Positions 8,658 to 32,758 of a DNA stretch of 64,000 nt are shown piece by piece. Below the pieces are notes generated by a model. It ran no database searches, had not been told where the DNA came from, and saw only the letters and a program-made list of their open reading frames with translations. The translations under genes were made by a program, and so were the position numbers. Source of the stretch: Saccharibacter sp. EH611 (GTDB lineage: Bacteria; Pseudomonadota; Alphaproteobacteria; Acetobacterales; Acetobacteraceae). The DNA lies in NCBI RefSeq assembly GCF_009834765.1, contig NZ_WVHP01000001.1, forward strand, positions 248,001-312,000, in the 5' to 3' direction. Positions within the stretch are counted from its first letter, which is position 1, and every line of letters starts with the position of its first letter.

Positions 8658-8876
8658 GTATCGCATCCACTCTAATGACAACTACATTTTCCATAAGGTG
8701 TTTTTCGCATACTGAAAATAGCGTTTGGACAATATTTTATATAAGACTTAAGGAGCTATTATAACATTATTAAATCCTTTTCATAAAACGAAAAAAGATG
8801 CTTCCCCCCTCGCTTTTCGATATTTTCTTGTTAAGAGAAGATGAGTGATCCGCTCACAGTTTTGAAAGGTTTGGTC

Positions 8877-9905
8877 ATGTCCGATGCTTCTTTAATTCAA
8901 GCCAAGCTGGCCTCGTTAACACTCGACGCCCCGGACAGCATCGACACGATCGACCTCTCCATCCGCCAAAAACGTGCCGATACCTCAAAAGCACTCTTGG
9001 CCTCGTTGATGACCAAAGATACCGGCGAAACCGGTAAATTTCTCACTTCATTGCTCAACACCGTCAATAACGTATCCCCCGGAGAAGAAAAGACCTCCAT
9101 ACTCTCACGCTGGCTGGGCAAAGGAAAAAATAAAATCGAGCTGATCAAGCAGCAATATCGCTCCGTTGAAAGCAACATTCAGCAGCTCGAAAACAACCTC
9201 CGCCAACGTGCAGAAATCCATCGTGATGACGGCATCCGTGCCGAAAAGCGCATTGAGGATATTCGCTCTTTTTACACAGAAGAGCGTCTAAATCTTCAAG
9301 CAATGGAACAGTTTATTGAGAACTCTGAGAAAAAAAGAGCAGAGCTCGAACAAAGCCTTGATACCAATGATCCGCTCGCTGTTGCTACTCTTAAAAAATT
9401 TGACAGCAGCCTCGCACTAGCCCGCCGTAAACGCGACGACATCCAAGATACGCTCGCAGCGCTTAGCCAAGATCTTATGACACAAGAGGGGATTAAAGAT
9501 AATATTCTTGCCCTCTTTCGCGGCATTCACGACGCGCTTTTTTCCCAGTTAACAGAATATCGCAATCTTTTCGCCGATACGCTGTCTATTGAGCGTAGCA
9601 GCGAAACAGTGCGCCAACTTGATGCTGTTGCAGAAAGCACCAATAATTTGCGACAAAAACGTGCGGAAATGCTCAATCAAGCCACACGGCAAGTAGCCCA
9701 ACATCAACAACGTGGCACCATTGATCTCGACCGTCTGATCAAGGCGCAAGAAGCCATGAAAGAAACCATTATCCATGTCCGCCAAATTCAACAAGATGGG
9801 GAACAAAAACGCGCCGCAGATTTGAAACGTTTGCAAGCCGCTCAAGAAGATTACCACAAAACCATTGCCCAACAGGACTCGACATCTCTTAACGCACCGC
9901 GTTAA
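8877..9905 (+). CDS. TelA-like coiled-coil protein (toxic anion resistance family)
   Basis: 342 residues from ATG 8877, chosen because GAAAGG lies seven bases upstream; an in-frame ATG at 8841 would add 12 residues but its Shine-Dalgarno abuts it. Soluble and almost wholly helical, with long heptad stretches. The middle (WLGKGKNKIELIKQQYRSVESNIQQLENNL, read in two parts) and the order of helices resemble TelA/KlaA proteins, which accompany ter and kla genes, though similarity is low by eye. Divergent from the VWA gene, and 11 bases ahead of the next coiled-coil gene. Function not known for the family at the molecular level. Confidence 0.65.
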   Translation: MSDASLIQAKLASLTLDAPDSIDTIDLSIRQKRADTSKALLASLMTKDTGETGKFLTSLLNTVNNVSPGEEKTSILSRWLGKGKNKIELIKQQYRSVESNIQQLENNLRQRAEIHRDDGIRAEKRIEDIRSFYTEERLNLQAMEQFIENSEKKRAELEQSLDTNDPLAVATLKKFDSSLALARRKRDDIQDTLAALSQDLMTQEGIKDNILALFRGIHDALFSQLTEYRNLFADTLSIERSSETVRQLDAVAESTNNLRQKRAEMLNQATRQVAQHQQRGTIDLDRLIKAQEAMKETIIHVRQIQQDGEQKRAADLKRLQAAQEDYHKTIAQQDSTSLNAPR

Positions 9906-30284: not shown

Positions 30285-30586
30285 GTCGAGGTTCCATGAG
30301 AATATGATTTCACCAAATTTGATAGTTATTAAAATAAGTTTTTAAATAAAAACTTCCAAAACAAACGTTATCCCCTTTTTACTTATACGTTATTTTTACC
30401 TTTATTGTTCTTATAATAAACCAGCGTTTCAGCTAGATGCTTACCGACTTTTTGGTTCATCATGTGCGCGATTAGTCGTGACAACGACACACTGTCTGGT
30501 TGTAAAATTCACAAAAAAACAATCTATGGTTGCATTTATCGCTGATACTGCTTCTAATTGTATTTCCACCACAGGAGTTAAAACCT
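30285..30586 (+). promoter_or_regulatory. AT-rich leader/promoter region of the CtrA-like gene
   Basis: About 300 bases without a gene, very AT-rich from 30305 to 30425. A TATAAT hexamer lies at 30412-30417, but no good -35 partner is seen at 17 bases, so the promoter is only suggested. That start would give a leader of roughly 165 bases. The nearest match to a CtrA box has the wrong spacing (TTAA-N9-TTAA near 30329-30345). Confidence 0.35.
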
Positions 30587-31327
30587 ATGCGTGTCTTAAT
30601 CGCGGAAAGTGACCTTTTTATCTCGTCCCCTCTTATTAGAATGTTGCGGAATGCTTCCTATACAGTCGATCATGCGACTTCAGGAAGTGATACGATCAAC
30701 ATGCTAAAATATTATGATTATGACCTCCTCATTACTGAAATGTCTCTTGAGGATATGGAAGGTCATGACATTATTCGTCAAATAAGACGCGCTCAAATCA
30801 CAACACCAATTATGGTCATCTCCACACTCATGCAGCCTCAAGCTAAAGTAATGGCCTTTGCTGCAGGTGCTGATGATTATGTGATTAAGCCTTACGATAA
30901 TGATGAGCTTCTTGCTCGTGTTCAGGCTCTCATGCGTCGCGCCCATGGCTTTGCTGAACCACGCATTAAAGTAGGCCCACTCGAGCTCGATCTTAGCAGT
31001 CGAATGATCAGCATTGATGGACAATTCTTACATCTAACCAGTAAAGAATACGCCATTATGGAACTTTTGATCGTACGTCGGGGCGCTATCCTTACTAAGG
31101 ATACCTTCCTGAACCATCTTTATGGCGGGATTGATGAGCCTGAAATGAAAATTATTGATGTTTTCATCTGTAAACTAAGACGTAAACTTCAACGTTTCGG
31201 AGCCGGTCATATGATCACAACCGTATGGGGTCGTGGCTATATTCTAGCTGAGGAACCAGAACAGCCTGCTTCCCCAGCGTTATCGTCATCGACACATGCA
31301 GCGCCTAACTTACGTGAAGCGATCTAA
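30587..31327 (+). CDS. CtrA-like response regulator with Glu at the phosphoacceptor position
   Basis: 246 residues, receiver domain 1-120 and winged-helix DNA-binding domain about 125-228. The DNA-binding half is nearly that of CtrA: LTSKEYAIMELL, LTKDTFLNHLYGGIDEPEMKIIDVF (in two parts), CKLRRKL, TVWGRGYIL. CtrA is the master cell-cycle regulator of alphaproteobacteria. In the receiver the phosphoacceptor Asp-51 of CtrA is Glu-51 here (LLITEMSLEDM), and the acidic pair reads ESD instead of EDD, while Lys in VIKPYD is kept. A Glu at this site commonly mimics the phosphorylated state. The C-terminus has a 25-residue Ser/Pro extension and no AA degradation end. AGGAG precedes ATG 30587. Confidence 0.88.
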   Translation: MRVLIAESDLFISSPLIRMLRNASYTVDHATSGSDTINMLKYYDYDLLITEMSLEDMEGHDIIRQIRRAQITTPIMVISTLMQPQAKVMAFAAGADDYVIKPYDNDELLARVQALMRRAHGFAEPRIKVGPLELDLSSRMISIDGQFLHLTSKEYAIMELLIVRRGAILTKDTFLNHLYGGIDEPEMKIIDVFICKLRRKLQRFGAGHMITTVWGRGYILAEEPEQPASPALSSSTHAAPNLREAI

Positions 31328-31396: not shown

Positions 31397-32758
31397 TTAC
31401 TCTACGGAGATCACGCGGCAGATTCTCTCACGAACCTGCTGCACCATCTCTCGTACCGTCTCCTCATTTTGAGCTTCGACCATAATACGGATCAACGGTT
31501 CAGTCCCACTGGCACGGAGCACGAGCCGTCCTTGTTCACCTAAAATAGACGCGGCCCATTGGCTAATCTCAGCGACTTCAGAGCTTTTGAGTGGATTTTC
31601 ACCCGAATAGCGCACATTTTCCAAAAGCTGGGGGTAAGGTTCAAAAATCCGGCACACTTGGCTGGCGGTTTGATCTTTCGCCACCATAACCGCTAGAACT
31701 TGTAGGGCTGCAAGCAAACCATCACCCGTCGTTCCATAATCAGACAATACCATATGGCCAGATTGCTCGCCGCCTAAATTTGCCTCCACCTGACGCATAC
31801 GCTCTACCACATAACGATCTCCCACAGCTGTGCGATGCAATGTCAGTCCCATCGTTTGGAGATATTTTTCGAGCCCCATATTGGACATAACAGTTGCGAC
31901 AACTTCCTGCCCTCTCAAGCGGCCCTGCTCATGCCATGATGCCGCAATAAGACCGAGGATCTGGTCGCCATCCACCAAATGTCCTTCTTCATCGGCAAAA
32001 AGAACACGATCCGCATCGCCATCCAAAGCAATCCCACAATGCGCGCCGTGCTCTTTCACCGCCTCGCACATACGCTGCGGATGTGTAGAGCCAACACCAT
32101 CGTTAATATTCACCCCATCTGGATGACAGCCGATGGAAATCACCTCTGCCCCCAGCTCCCACAAAGCAGCAGGGGCAACACGATAAGCAGAACCATTCGC
32201 ACAATCGAGAACAATTTTAAGCCCATCTAAACGCAGCCCACGCGGGAAGGAGAATTTCACATTCTCCACATAACGCCCCGCAGCATCCGTTAGACGAGAC
32301 GCTTTACCGATATGTTCAGGTGTTGCCAATTTCCCCGACAAATCTTGCTGCATTAAGCTTTCAATATCCGCTTCCATCGCATCGGACAACTTGAAACCAT
32401 CAGGGCCAAAAAGCTTAATCCCATTATCCGTAAACGGATTGTGGGATGCAGAAATCATCACGCCCAAATCCGCCCGTAAAGAGCGGGTCAAAAAAGCCAC
32501 GGCTGGCGTCGGAAGGGGGCCAACAAGAATGACATCCATCCCAGCGGCTAAAAAGCCTGACACCAAGGCGCATTCAATCATGTACCCTGAAAGACGCGTA
32601 TCTTTACCGACAATCACCGTATGGCGATGGTTAGACTGCGTTGTGAATTGTATCCCCGCCGCTTGGCCAAGCTTTTGGGCAACCTCTACGGTCATCGGAG
32701 ACGTATTAGCCTGACCGCGAATACCATCTGTACCAAAAAATACTCGCTTACCAGCCAT
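31397..32758 (-). CDS. glmM: Phosphoglucosamine mutase
   Basis: 453 residues. The phosphoserine loop ISASHNPF places the catalytic Ser at 105; DGDADRVLF binds magnesium, GEQSGHM and [15 protein letters not shown] bind sugar and phosphate. It converts glucosamine-6-phosphate to glucosamine-1-phosphate for UDP-GlcNAc, hence peptidoglycan and lipopolysaccharide. A GGGGAA site precedes ATG 32758. It follows ftsH, as in many proteobacteria, but a terminator separates them. Confidence 0.97.

Follow-up and report, generated by a model that had tools for sequence, protein, structure and literature searches.

At positions 30587 to 31327 of the window, by which we mean the whole 64,000-nucleotide stretch of Saccharibacter sp. 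EH611 DNA analyzed here, lies a gene for a protein with the same architecture and well conserved recognition region as CtrA of Caulobacter and Brucella, the OmpR-family cell-cycle response regulator that is phosphorylated through CckA and ChpT. Unlike those proteins, the EH611 protein has no phosphoacceptor Asp, no Mg-binding Asp and no AA end, and neither CckA nor ChpT was found in its genome. The locus raises the question of whether this is a genuine CtrA and, if it is, what takes the place of phosphorylation in its control.

A CtrA orthologue lacking key phosphotransfer residues

The reading frame opens at ATG 30587, encodes 246 residues and closes with a stop codon ending at 31327. Its features, and the adjoining gene considered below, are as follows.

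30573..30577, + strand: AGGAG, likely ribosome-binding site of ATG 30587, inferred from the letters
30587..31327, + strand: ctrA orthologue, 246 aa, with a predicted pseudo-receiver and a winged-helix DNA-binding domain (residues, Pfam, structure alignment)
30608..30610, + strand: codon 8, AGT (Ser), at the Mg-binding Asp site of ChpT-bearing relatives
30737..30739, + strand: codon 51, GAA (Glu), at the phosphoacceptor position
30821..30823, + strand: codon 79, TCC (Ser), conserved switch Ser/Thr retained
30887..30889, + strand: codon 101, AAG (Lys), conserved switch Lys retained, proposed partner of Glu-51
31022..31246, + strand: winged-helix DNA-binding domain, residues 146-220 (Pfam Trans_reg_C), with segment 170-198 close to that of relatives
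31253..31324, + strand: C-terminal tail of CtrA, without AA end and weakly constrained (translation, dN/dS)
31397..32758, - strand: gene that we take to be glmM-like, near ctrA in four acetic-acid-bacterial loci read

Both domains scored over their Pfam cut-offs (receiver Response_reg, 77.4 bits; winged helix Trans_reg_C, 67.1 bits), and the CtrA-type DNA-binding segment NHLYGG(I/M)DEPEMKIIDVFICKLR is present. Residues 170-198 of relatives matched EH611 with a mean identity of 90% in ChpT-less and 88% in ChpT-bearing genomes; an earlier, sequence-only reading of the locus had described the DNA-binding half as almost unchanged from CtrA. When the receiver was compared with solved structures, the top match was the Brucella CtrA receiver (4QPJ chain C, 90.4 bits); with the whole protein as query, other OmpR-family chains outscored 4QPJ because the latter comprises the receiver only. 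In the 4QPJ alignment the Brucella Asp stands opposite Glu-51 of EH611, and the Brucella EDD opposite E-S-D at residues 7-9. Both substitutions named in the sequence-only reading, Glu at the Asp-51 position and ESD in place of EDD, were thus borne out, and the alternative that an alignment would put Asp at position 51 was not. A domain that is recognized as a receiver yet lacks residues on which phosphotransfer depends is, judged by its residues, a pseudo-receiver.

The EH611 assembly comprises 25 contigs totalling 2.28 Mb, has a stated completeness of 100% and lies near Saccharibacter floricola, with which it shares 96% identity in CtrA. All three Saccharibacter sequences read have AGT as codon 8; for residue 51, EH611 and S. 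floricola use GAA, and Saccharibacter sp. 17.LH.SD uses GAG. Because Glu-51 is encoded in separate congeners, and by two different codons, the sequencing error considered earlier for the GAA codon is excluded. Compared with S. floricola, dN/dS was 0.01 for the linker plus DNA-binding domain and 0 for the receiver, the latter a weak estimate given a receiver dS of 0.04; outside its tail, EH611 ctrA is under purifying selection.

CckA and ChpT in EH611 and its relatives

We next turn to the kinase relay. The Pfam ChpT family (PF10090) was over cut-off in 174 of 298 family genomes, with no match in EH611 and two congeners. A family-specific ChpT profile (A3) was run on 80 chosen genomes, mostly Pfam-negative with Pfam-positive controls added, and gave 149–211 bits in eight; none of the remaining 72 exceeded 45 bits, and the three Saccharibacter genomes had no match. 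The weak matches fell mostly in long frames, many of them coinciding with hybrid kinases matched by the CckA profile. One Pfam-negative genome (G164) was ChpT-positive by A3, and Pfam alone therefore under-counts ChpT. That ChpT had merely been missed by Pfam was rejected as a general explanation, the family profile having recovered G164 alone and left 72 of the 80 genomes without ChpT.

For CckA, a full-length profile (A2) yielded 509–853 bits in 7 of the 80 genomes; the best match in any other genome reached no more than 378 bits, and Saccharibacter had no match at 1e-40. One genome (G133, 88% complete) has ChpT but no clear CckA. A HATPase search of the EH611 genome returned 10 matches and no CckA-type hybrid kinase; we take the matches to be three OmpR-type kinase pairs, NtrY, CheA, GyrB, ParE, MutL, HtpG and one short fragment, with GyrB, ParE, MutL and HtpG as four non-kinases. 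Of the 10 matches in the corresponding receiver search, 9 passed the cut-off, and the single-domain ones lay within the chemotaxis region. We also considered a CckA hidden among hybrid kinases, and rejected it: those of about 500–720 aa and longer ones read from ChpT-less genomes fell outside the CckA clade, which in a tree of kinase cores united family CckA with the Caulobacter CckA core (support 0.979). One such outside kinase, from G071, reached 407 bits with the CckA profile when its whole frame was scored.

With the phosphoacceptor and Mg-binding Asp gone, and CckA and ChpT not found in EH611 or two congeners, the kinase independence proposed in the sequence-only reading is well supported by the sequences, and the constitutive activity proposed alongside it is plausible.

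As a separate observation, EH611 carries what is left of a histidine kinase ATPase domain, 103 residues long (L125, C21:300768-300989) and PhoR-like by reading only; this remnant suggests a broken kinase gene.

The state of the CtrA pocket follows the presence of ChpT

CtrA was read from 186 family genomes among 299 searched, made up of the locatable ChpT-less ones and 86 ChpT-bearing ones, with paralogue loci removed, and the pocket was defined as D8/D51/K101. Among the 86 Pfam ChpT-positive genomes the pocket was intact in 83, broken in 2 and unread in 1, and among the 94 Pfam-negative ones it was broken in 79, intact in 12 and unread in 3; genomes with a sub-cut-off Pfam match had 4 intact and 2 broken pockets. 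Classification by profile A3 gave 68 broken, 3 intact (G030, G013 and G039) and 1 unread pocket in the 72 ChpT-less genomes, and 6 intact, 1 broken (G133) and 1 unread in the 8 ChpT-bearing ones. The ChpT-less status of G039 is doubtful; this genome is 87% complete and has a 22-bit ChpT-profile match in a 219-residue frame. Profile A3 was applied to 4 of the 12 Pfam-negative genomes with an intact pocket, one of which proved ChpT-bearing. Position 8 is Asp in 84 of 85 ChpT-bearing sequences.

On the gene tree (180 of the 186 sequences, midpoint-rooted on long degenerate branches, root state unused), parsimony required the pocket state to change 7 times, ChpT 11 times and residue 51 18 times, and the match between pocket and relay is to be read as clade patterns, not as independent events. 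We take the direction of change to be from Asp to Glu because ChpT-bearing genomes and Brucella CtrA have Asp.

Residue 51 and its pairing with residue 101

We read residue 51 in 79 named loci and found Glu in 44, Asp in 26, Ala in 3, Gly in 1 and Ser in 1, with 4 uncovered. The Glu-51 loci are from acetic acid bacteria, with named members of nine genera: Saccharibacter, Bombella, Gluconobacter, Neokomagataea, Asaia, Swaminathania, Tanticharoenia, Brytella and Acidomonas. The changed receiver is a property of the clade, not one restricted to the EH611 protein. The Asp-51 loci are a mixed set: 8 (L053-L060) are close CtrA relatives from metagenome-assembled genomes that mostly carry a Rhodospirillales or Acetobacteraceae label, 2 (L062, L067) are other alphaproteobacterial CtrA relatives, and 16 (L072-L087) are distant matches, mostly not CtrA, 13 of them from Chloroflexi and 2 gammaproteobacterial. 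In the 72 ChpT-less genomes residue 51 was Glu in 46, Asp in 13, Ala, His and Arg in 3 each, and Asn, Gly and Ser in 1 each, with 1 unread; Asp-8 is gone from 10 of the 13 that have Asp-51.

To define a clade independently of the residues of interest, we cut 66 sequences from a tree built after masking sites 8, 51 and 101. In this clade residue 51 is Glu in 48, Asp in 12, Ala in 3, His in 2 and Asn in 1 (acidic in 60 of 66), and Ser/Thr-79 is present in 65 of 66. Ranked by conservation among 118 sites, site 51 came 42nd, site 101 58th and site 8 95th, and the ranks were much alike on 19 genera. A non-acidic residue 51 occurred in 15 of 81 broken-pocket genomes that are ChpT-less or ChpT-weak. 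Among these broken-pocket sequences, residue 101 is basic in 61 of the 66 with acidic residue 51 versus 3 of the 15 with a non-acidic one (Fisher p 3e-8, kinship ignored). Such a pattern of residues favours a kept acid–base contact over plain decay.

The rule has exceptions. The Ala-51 loci are Bombella sp. ESL0385, B. saccharophila and Parasaccharibacter apium, and in the latter two, both close to Saccharibacter, Lys is retained; taken at the sequence level, Ala-51 with a retained Lys is evidence against a universal acid–base contact, and Ala, His, Arg or Asn at 51 in some relatives likewise indicates that mimicry is not universal. The receiver has also diverged faster in ChpT-less genomes: at a DNA-binding-domain identity of 0.7–0.8, mean receiver identity was 0.52 versus 0.71 in ChpT-bearing ones.

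Outside the main acetic acid bacterial group, Gly-51 in Plastoroseomonas hellenica (L065/L185) and Ser-51 in L066 hint at further independent receiver losses. Four sequences of genus g69 (L189, L190, L195, L197) have Arg-51 and a replaced switch Lys with the DNA-binding segment largely retained, and appear by sequence to be the extreme of receiver decay.

C-terminal end, CtrA boxes and gene neighbourhood

EH611 CtrA terminates in REAI, confirming that the AA end is missing. The AA end is found in 59 of 86 ChpT-bearing versus 20 of 94 ChpT-less CtrA sequences, and on this evidence degron loss is partial, a trend parallel to relay loss. The 25-residue extra tail remarked on earlier is ordinary for the family, long tails occurring in ChpT-bearing relatives too. 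Tail residues 223-246 are under little constraint (dN/dS 0.98, EH611 versus S. floricola).

A search for targets by the CtrA box TTAA-N7-TTAAC showed no enrichment in the EH611 genome, with 5 sites versus 8 for a reversed control pattern, and the five box neighbourhoods held no clear target. No TTAA-N6-8-TTAA occurred within 300 bases upstream of ctrA at any of four loci. SciP is a partner of CtrA in Caulobacter; as an alternative means of control it was rejected, being absent from 12 of 12 family genomes tested. In a single case (L349, EH611 C22:20297-20312), a complete CtrA box occurs between two frames and closely precedes a gene that is atpI-like by reading.

In four ChpT-bearing genomes (G166, G230, G204, G021), ctrA adjoins a cheR-cheB-cheY-cheW-cheA-chpT operon with chpT beyond cheA, and fliI lies on the opposite flank in three of the four. 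This adjacency is not general among ChpT-bearing genomes, as the cheA-chpT cluster and ctrA are on different contigs in G164 and che genes were not found near chpT in G133. Within the window, no che-chpT block stands beside ctrA and fliI does not adjoin it. In Gluconobacter oxydans, G022 and G294, fliI-fliJ adjoin ctrA, a glmM-like gene is near and che-chpT genes were not seen beside ctrA; G060 has glmM and ftsH nearby. The glmM-like gene lies on the side of ctrA that the che-chpT operon occupies in the four ChpT-bearing relatives. In G009, fliI is kept and a different che operon, 32–43% identical and without ChpT, lies about 3 kb away. These arrangements give a weak indication that chpT was lost together with its operon in an ancestor. 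FliM is present in EH611 and absent from 23 of the 72 ChpT-less genomes (22 with a readable CtrA, 1 with a fragment); its absence from genomes that have ctrA suggests that the retained role of CtrA is not flagellar alone.

What controls EH611 CtrA

We consider it likely that the EH611 protein is a genuine CtrA that has become a pseudo-receiver transcription factor, free of the relay, with Glu-51 holding the active state and control exerted through synthesis and turnover. Such a protein would be unable to accept phosphate. Contacts of Glu-51 with Lys-101 and Ser-79 would hold the receiver in its active, dimer-competent form, as laboratory CtrA(D51E) is taken to do, and the protein would occupy CtrA sites whenever present, so that control would shift from phosphorylation to synthesis plus turnover and output would track abundance. 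As far as the residue pattern goes, Glu-51 and a basic residue 101 probably keep EH611 CtrA active.

Against this stands the view that the receiver is simply dead: the switch would be lost, the module would serve dimerization or stability only, Glu-51 would be one tolerated residue among many, and the DNA-binding domain, or a dimer formed without phosphate, would provide the activity. The occurrence of A, H, R, N, G and S at position 51 in ChpT-less genomes and the faster receiver divergence (0.52 versus 0.71) speak for it, as do pseudo-receivers that dimerize without phosphate, described in the available part of PMC12632262; yet acidic 51 and basic 101 stay paired in 61 of 66 sequences while site 8 drifts, and Ser/Thr-79 is retained in 65 of 66 members of the tree-defined clade, and we judge a dead receiver unlikely. 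Regulation by some other input, be it ligand binding, a partner protein or phosphorylation of a different residue, would leave the protein regulated, though not through residue 51. It has a precedent in the ShkA pseudo-receiver of Caulobacter, which binds c-di-GMP according to the portion of PMC7010744 available to us; the absence of SciP from the 12 family genomes tested counts against it, and we regard it as quite improbable. The sequence-only reading had offered as one option a paralogue competing with canonical CtrA for its sites. This option found no footing in the EH611 genome, in which no second CtrA with Asp-51 and no other CtrA orthologue was found, the next match being 33% identical and all others that or less; it is very improbable. 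Fast receiver divergence might also be expected of a decaying gene or a sequencing artefact, an explanation that is scarcely credible given that independent congeners share Glu-51, that dN/dS is far below 1 except in the tail and that the gene is retained across the clade.

A relay-free, Glu-51-activated CtrA also allows a tentative history, which we see as possible but somewhat short of probable. A phosphomimetic Asp-to-Glu change would first have freed CtrA, CckA and ChpT would then have been lost, some lineages perhaps losing the neighbouring chemotaxis operon along with them, and the Mg site would have decayed and the degron eroded; much of the clade would now run on a locked-on CtrA, controlled by abundance only, like the form that causes G1 arrest in stressed Caulobacter. 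One genome, G133 (L272, L371, L380, L400), has Glu-51 with EDD intact and ChpT still present, and is by its sequence a possible intermediate. Glu-51 with Asp-8 retained is found in G009, G294, G271 and G133, and Asp-51 with Asp-8 lost in other genera; both orders of decay therefore exist, and this history is not proven.

Relation to known systems

In the parts of the sources available to us, Caulobacter CtrA D51E is called phosphomimetic (PMC4241560, PMC12186491), and D51E combined with a blocked C-terminus is described as a stable, active form that gives G1 arrest in ethanol or salt stress (PMC5189948). The laboratory protein CtrA(D51E)delta3-omega shares Glu-51 and a changed C-terminal end with EH611 CtrA, which, by analogy, may resemble this stable, active form; unlike it, EH611 CtrA has lost the Mg-binding Asp and the kinase relay too. 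Ethanol stress in Caulobacter works on CtrA via CckA, as stated in the same available part of PMC5189948. Acetic acid bacteria grow in the presence of ethanol, and the ones tested yielded no CckA; a tie to the ethanol–CckA–CtrA pathway is speculative.

ChxR, HP1043, GlnR and Rem are pseudo-receivers in the same sense as EH611 CtrA, with a receiver recognized by profile and the phosphorylation residues missing. By comparison, the EH611-type change affects a class-wide master regulator, extends across a clade and accompanies relay loss. Aspartate-less receivers most often have Glu at the D position, and phosphate mimicry by this residue is a hypothesis that has been disproved in some cases, according to the accessible portion of PMC12632262. 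The word CtrA is absent from the main text of both PMC12632262 and PMC4395418.

Tomasch 2021 (PMC8116508), in the part available, reports ctrA, gcrA and ccrM in 72–82% of Rhodospirillales genomes and chpT, cckA and divL in only 27–36%, noting that divergence may hide the latter. Both Brilli 2010 and Tomasch 2021 describe, in their available parts, ctrA retained where chpT and partly cckA were not found; they propose substitute or hard-to-detect phosphotransferases, and a changed receiver is unmentioned in those parts. We found no report of a CtrA receiver change in the openly licensed PMC literature. Relay loss and pseudo-receivers were already known, and what appears new is a clade-wide conversion of CtrA tied to ChpT loss.

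The conversion offers a possible answer to a puzzle in print, namely why ctrA is kept in many Rhodospirillales from which chpT and cckA are missing. It amounts to a natural experiment in which a class-wide response regulator, essential in some orders, has been cut from its kinase yet retained, and, with E, D, A, H, R and N all occurring naturally at a single site, phosphomimicry becomes testable. For annotators, the CckA-ChpT-CtrA relay is not to be assumed in vinegar and bee-associated acetic acid bacteria.

Apart from the window gene, EH611 encodes a second, degenerate CtrA-like OmpR protein (L004 1351-2190, contig C21 ~8750-9590) with Gln-51 and the switch Lys lost. Its gene lies about 1 kb from the fliM match, and we presume that the protein may be a Rem/FtcR-like flagellar regulator; Gln-51 copies 46–53% identical to it occur in two other genera (L208, L209).
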